A DNA stretch of 64,000 nt from Spartobacteria bacterium (GTDB lineage: Bacteria > Verrucomicrobiota > Verrucomicrobiia > Chthoniobacterales > UBA6821). The stretch is from positions 1-64,000 of the forward strand of contig CANIVT010000001.1 in assembly GCA_947471565.1 (NCBI GenBank), read 5' to 3'. Below, in pieces: positions 12,034-53,558 of the stretch. The position numbers and the translations under genes were made by a program. How positions within the stretch are numbered: the first letter of the stretch is position 1; every line of letters starts with the position of its first letter. The notes under the pieces are model-generated. The model was not told the origin of the DNA. It ran no database searches and saw only the letters and a program-made list of their open reading frames with translations.

Positions 12034-13443
12034 TCAGCCGATTCCGAAAACCTTGCGGGCGTCGCTGATCTTTCCTGTGAGGGCCGCTGCGGCGACCATG
12101 AGGGGACTCATGAGCATCGTGCGTCCGGTGGGGCTACCCTGACGGCCCTTGAAGTTGCGGTTACTGGAGCTGGCACAGAGTTGGTCCCCGACGAGCTTGT
12201 CGGGATTCATCCCAAGGCACATGGAACACCCGGCACCGCGCCACTCGAATCCCGCCTCACGAAAGATCTCGGCAAGACCCATTTTCTCCGCCACTGAGGC
12301 CACTCCCTGGGATCCCGGGACGACGATCGCCTTGACGCCGGCAGCGACCTTGCGGCCCTTGATATGCTTCGCCACCTCCTGAAGATCGGAAAGGCGCCCG
12401 TTGGTGCAGCTTCCGAGGAAGGTCACGTCGACCTTGATTCCCTCGACCGGGGTGCCCGAGGGGAGCTTCATATGCTCGATCGCCTCGGCGGCGGTGTCGC
12501 GGTCCTTCTCGGGAAGGTCCTTGGGATCTGGGATTGCCTCGTCGATGAAGACGGCCTGCCCCGGGGTGATTCCCCAGGTGACGGTGGGCAGAATCTCCCC
12601 GGCCTTGAAGTTCACGACGTCGTCATAGACAGCATCCTTGTCGGAGGCGACCGACTTCCAGCGTGCAACGGCGGCGTCCCACTCCCCTCCCGTGGGGGAA
12701 TAGGGACGGCCTCGCAGATATTCGAAGGTGGTCTCGTCAGGGTTCACATAGCCGACACGGGCGCCGCCCTCGATCGACATGTTGCACACGGTCATGCGTT
12801 CTTCCTGCGTGAAGGCGTCGAAGGTAGAACCTCCGAACTCGTAGGCGAAGCCGATGCCGCCGTTGACCCCCAGCTTGCGGATGATGTGCAGGATCACGTC
12901 CTTGGCGTAGACACCGGGGGCGAGCTTGCCGTCGACATTGATGCGTCGGACCTTGGGCTTGGCAATCGCCATGGTCTGTGTGGCGAGGACGTCACGCACC
13001 TGGCTGGTTCCGATGCCGAAAGCGATCGCGCCGAAGGCGCCGTGGGTCGAGGTGTGGGAGTCGCCGCAGGCAATCGTGGTGCCGGGTTGGGTGATTCCCT
13101 GTTCAGGGCCGACGATATGAACGATGCCCTGCTTGCCGGTCGGGAGATCGAAGAAAGTCACCCCTGTCTCGGCGCAGTTCTTGCGCAGTTCCTTGACCAT
13201 TGCGTCGGCAAGGGGGTCGGAGAAGGGTTCCTGGGACTGGTCGGTCGGGACGATGTGGTCGACCGTCGCGAAGGTGCGGTGAGGGTAGAGTACCTTCAGG
13301 CCGAGATCGCGCACCATGCCGAAAGCCTGCGGGCTAGTCACCTCGTGGATGAGGTGGGTGCCTATCAGAAGCTGGGTCCGTCCATCAGGGAGAGTGCGAA
13401 CGGTGTGTTCCTCCCAGACCTTATCAAGAAGCGTTTTGCCCAT
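12034..13443 (-). CDS. leuC: 3-isopropylmalate dehydratase large subunit
   Basis: Catalytic aconitase-family subunit of isopropylmalate isomerase. The 469-residue protein holds the three cysteines for the [4Fe-4S] cluster, in [13 protein letters not shown] and [13 protein letters not shown], plus the signatures [15 protein letters not shown] and [12 protein letters not shown]. Length matches bacterial LeuC (about 466). It is the first gene of a minus-strand run leuC-leuD-kinase-regulator and is divergent from icd, sharing a 103-bp intergenic region. That region contains a short GTTGC/GCAAC palindrome (near 13488) that could be an operator, though this is speculative. Confidence 0.97.
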
Positions 13444-46982: not shown

Positions 46983-49900
46983 TCAGGCGTGGTGTTCCTG
47001 GAGCGACTTCACCTCCAGCGGCTTCTCGGCGATCGAGCGGATGGCTTGGACGCTGGCGGCGGCGGCGCGGAGCGTGGTCATGATCGGGATGCGGTTGCCT
47101 ACGGCGGTAGCGCGGATCACCACCTCGTCGGCGCGCGGTTGCTTGCCGGCCGGGGTGTTGATGATGAAGTGCATCTCCCCGTTCTTGATCATGTCGACGA
47201 CATTGGGCCGTCCCTGAGCGAGCTTGTTGAGGCGGGTGACGGCGATGTCCTTCTGTTGCAGGAGTGCAGCAGTGCCATCGGTGGCGTGAATGGTGAAACC
47301 GAGATCGGCGAACTCCTTCACGATCGGGACGATCGCCTGCTTGTCGCTGTCCTTGACGCTGACAAAGAGATTTCCCTTCTGGGGAAGCGCCGGGGCGGCG
47401 GCCATCTGAGCCTTGGCATAGGCTCTGGGGAAGTCGGTATCGATTCCCATGACTTCTCCGGTGGATCGCATCTCGGGACCAAGGGTGATGTCGATGCCGG
47501 GGAACTTGATGAAGGGGAAGACGGCTTCCTTGACGCTGAAGTGCTTCGGGATGACTTCCTTGGTGAATCCAAGTTCCTGAAGCGTCTTTCCGGCCATGAT
47601 TTTGGCAGCCATCTTGGCGAGGGGAACCCCGATCGCCTTGCTGACGAAGGGCGACGTTCTCGATGCACGGGGATTGACCTCGAGCACGTAGACATCCTCG
47701 TCCTTGACCGCATATTGGACGTTCATGAGGCCGCGGACGTCGAGTTCCAGGGCCATCGCCTTGGTGGCCGAGCGGATGGACTCGAGCACCTTGGGTGAGA
47801 GAGAAACCGTCGGCAGGACACAGGCGCTATCGCCACTATGGATGCCGGCCTCTTCGATGTGCTCCATGATACCACCGATCACACATTCCTTGCCGTCGGC
47901 GAGGCAGTCGACATCGACCTCGGTGGCGTCCTCGAGGAAGCGGTCGACGAGGATCGGGCGCTCGGGGCTGACCTCGACGGCCGTCCGGATGTAACGGCGG
48001 AGATCCTCCTCGGTGTAGACGATTTCCATGGCGCGTCCTCCCAGCACGAAGGAGGGACGGACGAGCACGGGGTAGCCGACCTTGTTCGCCACGGCGACGG
48101 CCTCTTCCTCGTTGGTCGCGGTGCCGCCGGATGTCTGTCGCAGCTTCAGCTTATCGATCATTGCGGCAAAGTGCTTGCGGTCCTCGGCCATCTCGATGTT
48201 CTTGGGCTGGGTGCCGATGATGGTTACACCGCGTTCCTGCAGGGCGGCGGCGAGGTTCAGCGGGGTCTGGCCGCCGAACTGGACAACGGCGGCGTCACAC
48301 TGCTCGCGCTCGTAGATGTTCAGCACGTCCTCAAGGGTGAGGGGCTCGAAGAAGAGTTTGTCGCTGGTGTCGTAGTCGGTCGAGACGGTCTCGGGGTTCG
48401 AATTGACCATGATGGTCTCGAAGCCTTCCTCCTTCAGCGCGAAGGCGGCATGGACGCAGCAGTAGTCAAACTCGATGCCCTGTCCGATGCGGTTGGGCCC
48501 TCCGCCGAGGATCATCACCTTTTTTTTGGTACCCTTGCGGGTCTCATCCTCGTCGCCGTAGGTGGAGTAGAAGTAGGGGGTCGCTGCCTCGAACTCGGCG
48601 GCACAGGTGTCGACAAGGCGGTAGGTGGGCTCGACGCCGTCGGCCTTCCGCTTGTCGCGGATGGCATCTTCGGTCGTACCGGTGATCTGTGCGAGCTGGC
48701 GGTCGGAGAACCCGAGCTTCTTCGCCCTGCGGAGATCGATCCTGGCGGGATGCTTGCGGAATGCCTGCTCCTCCTCGACGAGTTCCTGAATGTTGTCGAG
48801 GAACCACGGGTCGACCGCGCTGATCTCGTGGATCTTTTTTGCGGTGAAGCCGGCGAGGAAAGCGTGGCGGAGGGTGAAGATCCGCTCGGCATTAGGAATG
48901 CGGAGGAGCTGTTCGATGCGGTCGGTGTCCCACGATCCGTCTTCCTTGCGCGGTTCGAGATCCTTCGGGTCGGAGCCGAGTCCGGCGCGTCCGGTCTCGA
49001 GCGAACGGAGCGCCTTCTGGAGGGCCTGCTTAAAGGTGCGGCCGATCGACATCGCCTCGCCGACGCTCTTCATCTGGCTGGTCAACGTAGGGTCAGCTTT
49101 CGGGAACTTCTCGAAGGTGAAGCGCGGAATCTTGACGACGCAATAGTCGATGGTCGGCTCGAAGCAGGCGGTCGTGGTTCGGGTGATGTCGTTCTTGAGT
49201 TCGTCGAGGCGGTAGCCGACGGCGAGCTTCGCGGCGATCTTAGCGATCGGGTAGCCTGTGGCCTTGGAGGCGAGTGCCGAGGAACGGGAGACACGGGGAT
49301 TCATCTCGATGACGATCTGTCGGCCGGTCTTGGGATCCACGGCGAACTGGATATTCGATCCGCCGGTCTCCACGCCGATTGCCCGGATGACGGCGAAGGA
49401 GGCGTCGCGCATCTTCTGATACTCGACATCGGTCAGCGTCTGGATCGGGGCGACGGTGATCGAATCGCCCGTGTGAACACCCATCGGGTCTAGGTTCTCG
49501 ATGGAACAGACAACGATGCAGTTATCGGCCTTGTCACGGATGACCTCCATCTCGAATTCTTTCCACCCGAGGAGCGATTCCTCGATAAGGACCTCGGTCG
49601 TGGGGGACATGTCGAGGCCGCGCCGGGCGATGGTCTCGAGTTCCTCGCGGTTATAGGCGATGCCGCCTCCCGCACCGCCGAGGGTGAAAGCGGGACGGAT
49701 AATGAGCGGATAGCGCCCGATCTTTTTGGCGATCTCGAAGACCTCGTCGATCGTGTGGGCGGCTCCGGACTCGGCAACTTCCAGACCGATCTCAATCATG
49801 ATCTCCTTGAAGAGTGTGCGGTCCTCCCCGCGCTTGATCGCCTCGGCATTGGCGCCGATGAGGCGGACCTTGTGCTTCTCGAGAACGCCGGAGTGGACAA

Positions 49901-50204
49901 GTTCCATGGCGGCGTTGAGCGCCGTCTGGCCGCCGAGGGTCGGCAGCAGAGCATCGGGCTTCTCCCGTTCGATGATCTTCTCGATGATCGCCGGGGTGAT
50001 CGGCTCGATGTAGGTCCGACCCGCGAACTCCGGGTCGGTCATGATGGTGGCCGGATTGGAGTTCACCAGCACCACGTCGTAGCCCTCCTCCGCGAGGGAC
50101 TTGCATGCCTGCACGCCGGAGTAGTCAAACTCGCATCCCTGGCCGATCACGATGGGGCCGGCGCCGATGAGGAGGATTTTCTTGATCGAGGTGTCTTTGG
50201 GCAT
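46983..50204 (-). CDS. carB: Carbamoyl-phosphate synthase large subunit
   Basis: Makes carbamoyl phosphate for pyrimidine and arginine synthesis. The 1073-residue protein has two homologous ATP-grasp halves ([21 protein letters not shown] and [21 protein letters not shown]), each with glycine-rich ATP sites ([24 protein letters not shown]) and metal-binding glutamates ([36 protein letters not shown]). An MGS-like allosteric domain follows after about 940. ATG 50204 is the usual start MPKDTSIKK. The small subunit carA is not in the window. Divergent from the leuA leader, with about 185 bp between. Confidence 0.97.
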
Positions 50205-50388
50205 GTCGGTTTCGGAAAAAAGCGTGGAATTGGAAAGTGTCGGACGGAGACCGTGACGGCCAACCATTCAAACCGCCTCCCGTCGGGTGGTCAAACGTGG
50301 AGTCAGGAAATTAGGATTTCGGTGATAAGGATTCAGCACGGACCCTACCCTCCTTGCAAAACATGGCAGCCTGTGAAAGGCTCTCATC

Positions 50389-50472
50389 ATGATTCAGGGC
50401 ATCTCCTCCATCCTGGTTGCCGGCAAAGGCCGCGCATTCCGCGCTGGCGGCCTGCTGCTTCTTGCCCTCTAA
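50389..50472 (+). CDS. Leucine-rich leader peptide for leuA attenuation
   Basis: A 27-residue open frame with ATG at 50389 and stop TAA at 50470-50472, 45 bp before leuA. A purine-rich GAAAGG lies about 8 bp upstream of its ATG. Five of its last six residues are leucine (ending GGLLLLAL), the hallmark of a leu operon leader. It is too short for normal gene finding. Ribosome stalling at the Leu codons (50452-50463, 50467-50469) would sense charged tRNA-Leu. Confidence 0.72.
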   Translation: MIQGISSILVAGKGRAFRAGGLLLLAL

Positions 50473-50510
50473 TTTTCTTGGAGCGGCCCTTGATCCGGTC
50501 GTTCCGGATC
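50428..50510 (+). promoter_or_regulatory. Alternative hairpins of a putative leu attenuator
   Basis: GGCCGC at 50428-50433 can pair either with GCGGCC at 50447-50452, just before the Leu codons, or with a second GCGGCC at 50483-50488. Downstream, GATCCGG (50492-50498) and CCGGATC (50504-50510) form a stem followed by CTTTCC, a weak terminator. Mutually exclusive pairing and the Leu codons fit classical attenuation, though the T-run is poor and the stem ends 7 bp before the leuA ATG, so it could act on translation instead. Confidence 0.55.
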
Positions 50511-50517
50511 CTTTCCT

Positions 50518-52071
50518 ATGAATAACGACCGAGTTCTCATCTTCGACACCACCCTGCGCGACGGCGAGCAGTGCCCTGGTGCCTCCATGAATCTGCGCGA
50601 GAAGCTGGAGATCGCCCGGCAGTTGGCCCGCCTCAAGGTTGATATCATCGAGGCAGGATTTCCCGTCATTAGTGATGGTGATTTCGAGGCCGTGCATACG
50701 ATTGCCTCGGAAGTGAAGGGGCCTGTTATTTGCGGTCTGGCCCGATGTGTGCCCAAGGATATCGAGGCTGCCGGAAAGGCGCTCCTGCCCGCTGGGAACA
50801 AGGGTCGCATCCATGTCTTCCTCGCCACCTCCAAGATCCACCGCGAGCACAAACTCAAGAAAGCCAACGAGGAGATCCTGCGCTTGGCCGCGGAAGGGGT
50901 GCGTCAGGCCAAGTCCTTCACCGCTGATGTGGAGTTCTCACCTGAGGATGCCTCCCGTACCGAGCCGGAGTTTCTGGCAGAGGTTGTGCAGGCTGCAATC
51001 GAGGCTGGCGCCACCACGGTCAATATCCCCGACACCGTCGGCTACGCGATGCCCGGTCAGTACGCCGACCTGATCACCTACCTGCGCAACCATGTCCGAG
51101 ACATCGCCAAGGCGGTGATCAGTGTCCATTGCCATGACGATCTCGGCATGGCCGTGGCGAATTCTCTCGCGGCCGTGCAGGCTGGTGCCCGACAAGTCGA
51201 AGGGACATTCAATGGTATCGGCGAGCGTGCCGGCAACGCGGCGCTCGAGGAGGTCGTCATGGCGATCAAGACCCGTCCCGATGTCTATGCTGGACTTTCC
51301 ACGGGGATCGAGACCCGCGAGATCCTCAAGACCTCCCGGCTCATCAGTCGCTTGAGTGGCCTGCAGGTCGCCCGCAGCAAGGCTATCATCGGAGAAAATG
51401 CCTTTGCTCATGGTTCCGGAATCCACCAGGACGGCATCCTCAAGATGCGTGAGACCTATGAGATCATGGATCCTGTCGAGGTGGGCTGGGGTGGCACGGA
51501 ACTTCCGCTGACCAAGCATAGCGGTCGCCATGCCATGGTGGTGCGTCTGGAGCACCTTGGCTTCCATCTCACCGAGGAAGAGATCGCCTCCGTCTTTGCC
51601 CGCTTCAAGGAATTGGGCGACAAGAAGAAGTTCGTCTACGACGACGATCTGGTCGCCTTGGCTGGGGATTCCGTTGCAGGGGATGCGGGTGCCTATGCTC
51701 TACAGTCGCTCCAGGTGGTCTGTGGTGGAAGTTCCGTCCCCACGGCCGATGTCATCCTCTCGCACCATGGGAAGACCGTCTCGGTCACGAGTCCCGGTAA
51801 CGGCGCTGTCGATGCCGCCATGAAGGCGATCGACAAGATCACGGGTAAGACAGGTCATCTGGCCGTCTATCTTGTGGAGGCTGTCACCGAGGGACAGGAC
51901 GCCTTGGGTGAGGTGACTCTCAAGGTCGATTTTGGTGACGGTATCCTCATCACCGGCAAGGGTGCTTCCACTGACGTGATCGAGGCCTCCGCCCGTGCTT
52001 ATGTGAATGCCATCAACCGCGCCCTGCTCATGCAGCAACCCAAGCCCGGCATCACTAAGCCGATGGTTTGA
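50518..52071 (+). CDS. leuA: 2-isopropylmalate synthase
   Basis: First committed step of leucine synthesis: acetyl-CoA plus 2-oxoisovalerate. The 517-residue protein starts with the HMGL-like barrel motif [17 protein letters not shown], has the metal-binding [14 protein letters not shown] and GAGxxxG-type [18 protein letters not shown]. The C-terminal regulatory LeuA dimer domain (about 390-510) binds leucine for feedback inhibition. leuC and leuD lie 37 kb away on the other strand; leuB is absent from the window. Expression is likely controlled by the leader peptide just upstream. Confidence 0.96.
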
Positions 52072-52151
52072 GAAATTGAAAATCTGAAATCTGAATAAGA
52101 ATCTTTCGAAAGACTCCATCACCCATTCCCGATTACCCATCACCCAATCAT
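52072..52151. repeat. Low-complexity repeat between leuA and lemA
   Basis: Left part 52072-52101 has AAATCTGAAATCTGAA direct units. A 12-bp perfect palindrome TCTTTCGAAAGA is at 52102-52113. The right part from 52116 to about 52151 has CATCACCCATT/ACCCATCACCC units. The two sides are different units, unlike the inverted-arm elements elsewhere. It fills the 81-bp gap up to the lemA start. Confidence 0.5.
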
Positions 52152-52152
52152 C

Positions 52153-52767
52153 ATGAACAAAACCCTCCTTATCGTCCTTGGTGTCCTCGTCGTCATCATC
52201 CTGGCCGCCATCTCCAGCTACAACGGGCTGATCGGCTCCGCGCAAGCAGTCGATGCCTCGTGGGCCCAGGTCCAGAATGTCTACCAACGCCGTGCCGACC
52301 TGATCCCGAACCTTGTCCAGACCGTGCAGGGAGCGGCTAACTTTGAGAAATCGACGATCGTTCAGGTCACCGAGGCCCGTGCCTCCGTCGGCAAGGTGCA
52401 GATCAATCAGAACCAGGCACCAGCCGATGCCGCCCAACTCGCCCAGTATCAACAGGCGCAGGGTCAGCTTGGCACGGCGCTCTCCCGTCTCCTCGTCGTG
52501 GCGGAGAACTATCCGGATCTCAAGGCATCAGCCAATTTCCGTGACCTGCAGGCCCAGCTTGAGGGAACCGAGAACCGCATCACCGTGGAGAGAGGGCGAT
52601 TCAACGCCGCCGTGCAGGAATACAACACGAAGATCAAGACCCTTCCGACCGTCTTCTTTGCTGGCTTCCTCGGCTTCCAGCCCAAGCCTTACTTTCAGTC
52701 GATGGCGGGTGCCGAGACCGCTCCCGCCGTGAAGTTCGACTTCAGTGCTGCTCCGGCAGCCAAGTAA
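52153..52767 (+). CDS. lemA: LemA-family membrane protein
   Basis: A 204-residue protein with one N-terminal signal anchor (about residues 5-22, LLIVLGVLVVIILAAI) and a long helical bundle exposed outside the membrane. Recognised by WAQVQNVYQRRADLIPNLVQ, VTEARASVGK and ENYPDLKASANFRDLQAQLE. Its function is not established. It is typically followed, as here after 20 bp, by a TPM-domain protein, so the two probably act together at the envelope. Confidence 0.94.
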   Translation: MNKTLLIVLGVLVVIILAAISSYNGLIGSAQAVDASWAQVQNVYQRRADLIPNLVQTVQGAANFEKSTIVQVTEARASVGKVQINQNQAPADAAQLAQYQQAQGQLGTALSRLLVVAENYPDLKASANFRDLQAQLEGTENRITVERGRFNAAVQEYNTKIKTLPTVFFAGFLGFQPKPYFQSMAGAETAPAVKFDFSAAPAAK

Positions 52768-52787
52768 GAAGGTTTTCACGAACCGCC

Positions 52788-53558
52788 ATGCGCCGATTGC
52801 TGCTCCTTCTTCTCCTTGGAGTGGGGCTGTCGGCCGGGTACCCCGCTAGGGCCGCCGAAACGCTCCCCCCGCCTCCTTCCCAATATGTCACCGACACGAC
52901 GGGTGACATTCCGGTGCCGTTAGTCGCACAACTCAACCGGCGTCTGGCCGATTTCGAGCGGCAGACCTCCAACCAGATCGTGGCGGTGGTCTCGCGCTCA
53001 CTTCCGGCTGGAACAACCCAGGAGGAGTACGCCCAGAGCCTCTACCACGCCTGGAAGATCGGCTCAAAAAAGAACTCCAACGGGGTCCTGATCCTGATGT
53101 TCATCAATGATAAAAAGGCATGGATCCAGACTGGATATGGACTGGAAGGAGCCCTCCCAGATGTCACGTGCAATCGCATTGTGAGGGAACAAATGTCACC
53201 GGCTTTCCGATCCGGAAACTACGGGGGAGCACTTGCTGCGAGTATCAATGCAGTAATGCAGGCAACCAAAGGAGAATACAAGGGGTCCGGGCAAGCAGCG
53301 AAACATCCCGCGACCTTCAAGGATTTTCTCTTCTCTCCGCTGGGCTTTTTCCTCTTTGTGTTCGTGCTTTTGATGATCGTGAGCAGGAGTCGGCGTGACC
53401 TCGGTCCCGGGGGAGTGAATCCCGGTGCGGCCGCTGCGACGGGATTCTTCATCGGAGGGCTCGGAGGATGGGGAGGTGGTTCCGGCGGCGGTGACTCTGG
53501 CGGATTTTCTGGTGGCGGGGGTGATAGCGGTGGAGGCGGGGGTGGCGGAGATTTGTAA
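52788..53558 (+). CDS. TPM-domain (YgcG-like) membrane protein
   Basis: A 256-residue protein with a signal peptide (about 1-22). A TPM domain follows (about 30-155; VTDTTGDIPVPLVAQLNRRL, SNGVLILMFINDKKAWIQTG, ALPDVTCNRIVREQMSP). One transmembrane helix lies at about 185-203 (FFLFVFVLLMIVSRS), and the tail is extreme Gly/Ser-rich, ending GGGGGGGDL. The TPM domain faces the periplasm. TPM proteins are linked in other systems to photosystem repair or acid phosphatase activity; the role here is unknown. Pairs with lemA. Confidence 0.88.
   Translation: MRRLLLLLLLGVGLSAGYPARAAETLPPPPSQYVTDTTGDIPVPLVAQLNRRLADFERQTSNQIVAVVSRSLPAGTTQEEYAQSLYHAWKIGSKKNSNGVLILMFINDKKAWIQTGYGLEGALPDVTCNRIVREQMSPAFRSGNYGGALAASINAVMQATKGEYKGSGQAAKHPATFKDFLFSPLGFFLFVFVLLMIVSRSRRDLGPGGVNPGAAAATGFFIGGLGGWGGGSGGGDSGGFSGGGGDSGGGGGGGDL

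Follow-up and report, generated by a model that had tools for sequence, protein, structure and literature searches.

The leuA locus and its leader

We analyzed a 64,000-nucleotide stretch (hereafter the window) at positions 1 to 64,000 of contig CANIVT010000001.1 from the Spartobacteria bacterium assembly GCA_947471565.1. The gene leuA, encoding 2-isopropylmalate synthase, lies on its forward strand at 50518..52071. It is a genuine leuA, as the initial annotation had it, matching TIGR00973 with 695 bits (cut-off 598.7), and its product is 90% identical to LeuA of metagenome-assembled genomes (MAGs) titled Spartobacteria, which fits the earlier guess that the DNA came from Verrucomicrobiota. 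Upstream on the same strand, a leader open reading frame (ORF) at 50389..50472 comprises 27 codons and a TAA (MIQGISSILVAGKGRAFRAGGLLLLAL*), running from the ATG at 50389 to the stop at 50470-50472, 45 bp before the leuA ATG at 50518. Codons 22–27 (50452..50469), the candidate control codons, read Leu Leu Leu Leu Ala Leu. The frame, its LLLLAL end and its distance from leuA are all legible in the sequence as initially described. A further ORF (46983-50267, reverse strand) upstream of the leader looks like carB by eye; because it runs the opposite way, a leuA promoter could sit between it and the leader.

The initial annotation assigned ribosome binding for the leader to a GAAAGG motif. The motif is present at 50375-50380, and its spacing in the window alone would suit that role, but it is kept in 3/15 genus members and sits at the expected −10 position below a conserved −35 element, which makes the assignment doubtful. 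We therefore disfavor it for the genus, while it may hold for the window taken alone. By eye, no clear Shine-Dalgarno box precedes the leuA of the window.

Conservation of the leader in the genus

All 16 genomes searched in the genus of the window contained leuA, with sufficient upstream DNA in 15 (the exception being G009, locus L097, with 61 nt upstream). Using a threshold of at least four Leu in eight codons, we detected a Leu-rich ORF upstream of leuA in 11/15 members, against a mean of 1.3 and a maximum of 4 of 15 when the sequences were dinucleotide-shuffled ten times, and 1/15 on the reverse strand; the Leu codons, for which the initial annotation had proposed a comparison of relatives, are conserved in most of the genus. 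Most members end their leader with RAGxLLLLAL* or a near variant, and the N-termini of the peptides vary freely. Four members (L090, L094, L096, and L098) fell below the threshold: some Leu are replaced by other hydrophobic residues in L094 (GGFLVLAL) and L098 (GGILLLAI), two Leu are left within the last seven codons of L096, and a stop breaks the conserved frame in L090. Among 12 members, pairwise differences at codon positions 1, 2, and 3 amounted to 98, 66, and 177 over the last seven leader codons and to 184, 77, and 177 over the last twelve; the excess at position 3 therefore does not extend beyond the last seven.

An RNA model built from nine genus members hit the window's own genome once, in front of leuA, and matched at E < 0.002 in 12/16 genus genomes, each time at leuA. 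Elsewhere in the genus, the leader of G014 reached only 0.48, G005 and G009 gave no match, and the best match of G012 (0.007) was not at leuA; the filters of this search lose weak matches. Sequence comparison supports the view that a leucine-coded leader, followed by mutually exclusive structures, is conserved before leuA in most of the genus.

Other genes of leucine and branched-chain amino acid synthesis were inspected for a conserved leader comparable to that of leuA. None was found before leuC (11 loci, L276 misanchored), leuB (13 loci; L328 misanchored, L338 with 11 nt upstream), or ilvB (15 loci, three of them with scattered, unlike Leu-rich ORFs). The earlier claim that leuA carries the leader and leuC does not agrees with this comparison at the 11 leuC loci.

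Two mutually exclusive hairpins

Folding of the segment after the leader stop yielded two hairpins on the forward strand. In the ON hairpin, a candidate antiterminator or anti-sequestor backed by folding and covariation, GGAGCGGCC (50480..50488, 7 nt past the stop) pairs over nine positions with GGTCGTTCC (50497..50505; GGUCGUUCC in RNA letters). The OFF hairpin, identified from sequence and folding, joins GATCCGG (50492..50498), nearly invariant in nine close members, to CCGGATC (50504..50510), and had already been noted in the initial annotation. The GGTCGTTCC strand shares bases with each arm of this stem as well as with its loop, and the ON pairing (50480-50505) and the OFF pairing GAUCCGG/CCGGAUC (50492-50510) are mutually exclusive. 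Another alternative had been proposed at first, in which GGCCGC (50428-50433) pairs with either of two GCGGCC copies (50447-50452 and 50483-50488). The letters are present, but we rejected this pairing, as GGCCGC occurs in only 2/15 genus members; the 50483 copy has its conserved partner downstream, in GGTCGTTCC. The distance from leader stop to switch is 7–10 nt in 11 members.

Covariation was assessed in alignment A1, which omits L087, L090, and L096; alignment A2 and the RNA model additionally omit L086, L094, and L098. In the ON helix, pairing reached 93.5% over 12 sequences and 98.6% in the core of six pairs, with five double-changed cells and a covariation score of 0.246; one pair exchanges A-U for U-A, C-G, U-G, or G-U, and another C-G for U-A. 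For paired fraction, covariation score, and double-changed cells, none of 500 shuffles attained the observed value, while 13 matched the number of pair types and 81 the number of double-changed pairs (2); the shuffles ignore relatedness, and 0/500 is therefore not a probability. Sliding the helix out of register left at most 46.4% paired. Covariation of the OFF hairpin in A1 was not above shuffles; there, L094 and L098 are out of register at this stem and the remaining rows hardly vary.

Predicted response to ribosome position

A ribosome with a stop codon in its A site covers about 12–14 nt counted from the UAA. When the window leader was folded with 3, 8, or 10 nt barred from pairing, counted from the UAA, the predicted P(ON) was 1.00; a 12-nt mask gave P(OFF) 0.89 and a 14-nt mask P(OFF) 1.00. 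With the A site on any of codons 23–27 the ON hairpin was predicted, whereas on codon 22, the first Leu, a small hairpin and the OFF hairpin were predicted. Post-stop segments of all nine close members (9/9) folded ON under a 3-nt mask and OFF under one of 14 nt; with the latter, L094 turned OFF-like and L098 did not, and L086, L087, L090, and L096 displayed no clear flip. With whole leaders and a ribosome edge at +12, 6/11 members flipped (L083, L084, L085, L089, L091, and L093). L092 did so partially and L088 stayed ON, both needing a wider mask; L095 leaned OFF throughout, L094 moved partly, and L098 was unmoved. In the simulated absence of a ribosome most members leaned OFF, L089 was even, and L093, L094, and L098 were ON. 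The mask-dependent flip predicted by these models is clear in the genus core and unproven at its edges.

Leaders across Verrucomicrobiota and beyond

Searches for leuA at E ≤ 1e-150 retrieved matches in 85/288 phylum genomes and 61/213 genomes of the window's order, or 144 genomes combined. Five were unused, three with short upstream DNA (G009, G113, G226) and two with a partial leuA (G232, G384), and the leader counts exclude L003–L006, which duplicate genus members in full or truncated form. A Leu leader (at least 4/8) preceded leuA in 69/139 sampled Verrucomicrobiota genomes with usable upstream DNA (shuffles 7.0, reverse strand 4), and 40/139 retained one at a threshold of at least five Leu in eight (shuffles 0.9, reverse strand 0). 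The same scan of the 139 with ten other amino acids peaked at 13, for Arg. Under a slightly looser rule, leaders were identified in 74/139 genomes and 20/35 families, with hardly any or none in f15 (0/22), f16 (0/5), f40 (0/7), and f13 (1/9). Leu leaders are not confined to the phylum, since 8/46 named loci, mostly from outside it, pass the Leu rule against 1.4 in shuffles.

In families f4–f7, f10, and f13 of the window's order, leaders were seen and no common switch emerged. Leaders of f5 (L112, L201–L204, L207, L208, L210, L211) carry GSGAP after the Leu run. Those of f7 and f10 (L007, L099, L101–L103, L107, L186, L188) resemble RLGLLPSRL, and their own codons (CTCGGGTTGCTCCCGAG or close) can form a hairpin. 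Clear U-tract terminators are few in f5, f7, and f10. Two named loci from Planctomycetota (L069, L074) harbor Leu-rich ORFs ~175–180 nt before leuA, with a common tail REMRVCT after the Leu run and TTGAC upstream; a related attenuator in another phylum is possible there. A LeuA match was absent from 5/6 genomes of another genus of the window's family (G016–G021), with only a 29% partial match in G021, which suggests that this sister genus lost this leuA. In-frame stops initially called inside leuA of f40, one each in G137, G301, G260, G276, G317, G243, and G296, were discarded after inspection of the seven found none.

Promoter spacing and a probable leaderless start

Leader start codons had been chosen without regard to promoters. 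Relative to them, TTG[AC] starts at −41..−33 in 63/74 phylum leaders (2–12 in equal windows elsewhere) and TAnnnT at −15..−11 in 27/74 (0–7 in other windows). At the window locus, a putative −35 element of this phylum-wide spacing, TTGCAA (50354..50359, forward strand), begins 35 nt upstream of the leader ATG. The −10 region expected from its spacing (50376..50382, forward strand) is a poor match, AAGGCT, overlapping GAAAGG. Ordinary sigma-70 spacing would place +1 on or near the leader start codon. GGAG, GAGG, or AGGA occurs within −18..−4 of 3/92 leader starts vs 24/92 leuA starts, in a set that mixes named loci with genomes and in which three or more near-duplicates remain (L007 with L186/L189, L020 with L212, L030 with L179). 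L094 and L098, which are not among the 92, carry GGAG or AAGGA immediately 5′ of the leader start. From their upstream sequences, the leader peptides look leaderless, a statistical statement about the set, in which the window's own −10 is weak.

Before leuC of the genus (window 12049-13443, reverse strand; relatives L267–L277), GCTA recurs with its TA ~15 nt before the ATG in 9/11 loci (L270 has ACTA; L276 is misanchored), and by sequence this gene looks leaderless too.

A probable leucine-responsive attenuator and its rivals

We consider it likely, from the sequence comparison and folding models, that leuA is controlled by a ribosome-mediated, leucine-responsive attenuator, whichever step carries the output. 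The conserved leader, the covarying ON hairpin, the mutual exclusion, and the mask-dependent flip have a comparative or in silico basis; ribosome stalling, a leaderless start, and the step at which output is set are our inferences. Transcription would probably start at or a few bases from the leader ATG, as the promoter spacing indicates, giving a leader peptide translated from leaderless RNA. With enough charged Leu-tRNA, a ribosome reaching the UAA at 50470 would shield the first bases of GGAGCGGCC; formation of the ON hairpin would be blocked, the OFF hairpin would form, and leuA expression would fall. Under a shortage of charged Leu-tRNA, the ribosome would stall on the Leu codons and leave GGAGCGGCC free to pair with GGUCGUUCC, which would break the OFF hairpin and allow leuA to be expressed. 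The probable attenuator of the initial annotation thus stands through its conserved Leu leader and mutually exclusive structures, having shed its GGCCGC pairing and probably its GAAAGG ribosome-binding site. Several observations count against an attenuator: the four of 15 members below the Leu threshold, OFF covariation that does not exceed shuffles, a flip in only 6/11 members at +12, the OFF state predicted for a stall on codon 22, a ribosome-free state that differs among members, a weak or missing U-tract, the poor −10 of the window, and GGAG or AAGGA in L094 and L098.

Premature transcription termination, as in the terminator-bearing relatives, is on this analysis somewhat more likely as output than blocked leuA translation. 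Phylum-wide, a hairpin and T-tract precede leuA in 60/91 gaps (shuffles 13.7) under an ad hoc rule uncalibrated on known terminators, and many relatives outside the window's order bear intrinsic terminators. An antiterminator test covered 41 of these 60 calls; the other 19 are L234, L179, and 17 from the window's order. The leader stretch best complementary to the 5′ arm of the terminator fell within −28..+3 of the leader stop in 35/41, just past the Leu codons; at most 2/50 shuffles did as well in 24/41, and more did in 17/41. Under the translational alternative, which claims an appreciable but lesser share of the likelihood given to the attenuator and adds nothing to it, the sensor is the same, the OFF hairpin lets RNA polymerase pass but makes it harder for ribosomes to start at the leuA ATG, a few nucleotides 3′, and a leader stall frees the start region. 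The hairpin indeed ends 7–9 nt before leuA in nine close members; a canonical hairpin with T-tract is found in only 5/11 genus leaders scanned (in L093 through the ON hairpin), the window failing the rule with CTTTCCT (50511..50517, forward strand), a weak U-tract between OFF hairpin and leuA; and L086, L087, L094, and L098 lack a T-run after the hairpin. In the portion of the report available, the leuA leader of Streptomyces lividans is likewise described without a typical terminator (PMC8079986). Blocked translation fits less well with CTTTTTT after the hairpin in L084 and L093 and with strong terminators in most relatives outside the order, and, with both hairpins within the reach of an initiating ribosome, it is not evident that access would improve.

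It seems unlikely to us that the leader ORF is incidental and that the element is a structured RNA recognized by a protein or another factor. The available text on the actinobacterial LEU element, for which a protein site was proposed, offers a precedent, with Streptomyces codon mutations that behaved unlike classical attenuation (PMC1262725); yet Leu runs recur here in unlike leaders of many families, and the codon-position bias and the 7–10 nt between stop and switch in 11 members also speak against this reading. Slightly less credible still is an ORF that mainly aids leuA translation, through reinitiation or as a stable small protein, with no attenuation. Leader genes have been proposed to raise translation of a nearby gene (PMC4833913, as far as its accessible part goes), but the 45-nt gap and the alternative structure right after the stop fit attenuation better, and the N-termini of the peptides vary freely. 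Hairpins and short ORFs are common, and 4/15 genus members miss the Leu threshold; nevertheless, a chance Leu-rich ORF beside chance hairpins is highly improbable given the shuffle and reverse-strand controls, the covariation controls, and the promoter spacing. The attenuator remains our preferred reading.

Relation to known systems and implications

The enteric leu attenuator (leuL) and the locus of the window share a Leu-codon leader before leuA, alternative hairpins, and stalling logic. The switch described here differs in its two overlapping short hairpins adjoining leuA, in the want of a clear U-tract in the window, and in its seemingly leaderless start. Rfam release 15 returned no gathering-score match in window positions 48000-53000 (five chance-level matches below gathering) and only two tRNAs across 20 related loci.

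The following comparisons reflect the accessible portions of the reports cited. Leu-run leaders before leuA are reported from Actinobacteria, including the LEU element (PMC1262725) and Corynebacterium glutamicum (PMC4046766, PMC3890552). The LEU element shares such a leader with our locus but is a pseudoknot whose base stem joins Leu codons to the leuA Shine-Dalgarno box, whereas the conserved pairing here lies wholly 3′ of the leader stop. LeuL1 before leuA of S. lividans is alike in being leaderless and without a typical terminator (PMC8079986). Campylobacter LeuL, a 28-aa leader with five Leu near its end before leuABCD, is similar, although leader ORFs in that study were sought with a ribosome-binding site and, unlike here, their RNAs end shortly past the stop codon (PMC3847290). 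The Staphylococcus aureus ilvD attenuator also combines a Leu-rich leader, terminator, and antiterminator, but precedes ilvD and has a ribosome-binding site and a poly-U terminator (PMC5794164). Mycobacterial polycysteine attenuators (Canestrari 2020, cited in PMC9031893) share a leaderless short ORF with a run of controlling codons that regulates downstream genes, and differ in amino acid and phylum. PMC13236596 concerns ilvB1. Our literature searches, which cover few subscription journals and extend only to the matches listed, gave no description of a leucine attenuator in Verrucomicrobiota and nothing on leaderless transcripts or transcription start sites in the phylum, whose name a term search also failed to find in a survey of premature terminators (PMC2965389). 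Leucine attenuators, even leaderless ones, are already known in Actinobacteria.

As a broader and tentative proposal, for which we would claim distinctly less than even likelihood, bare-5′-end leucine attenuators may occur throughout Verrucomicrobiota, and in the window's order an ancestral intrinsic terminator may have decayed to a hairpin abutting leuA, shifting the output from transcriptional to translational within one lineage. If the attenuator is real, ribosome-mediated leucine attenuation would extend to Verrucomicrobiota. The phylum would then supply many natural variants for comparison, with what is apparently one and the same leaderless sensor coupled in some families to strong terminators and in another to a hairpin that abuts the start. 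It would become possible to test how a ribosome loading at a bare 5′ end can keep up with RNA polymerase, and how the output of an attenuator can switch between transcription and translation.
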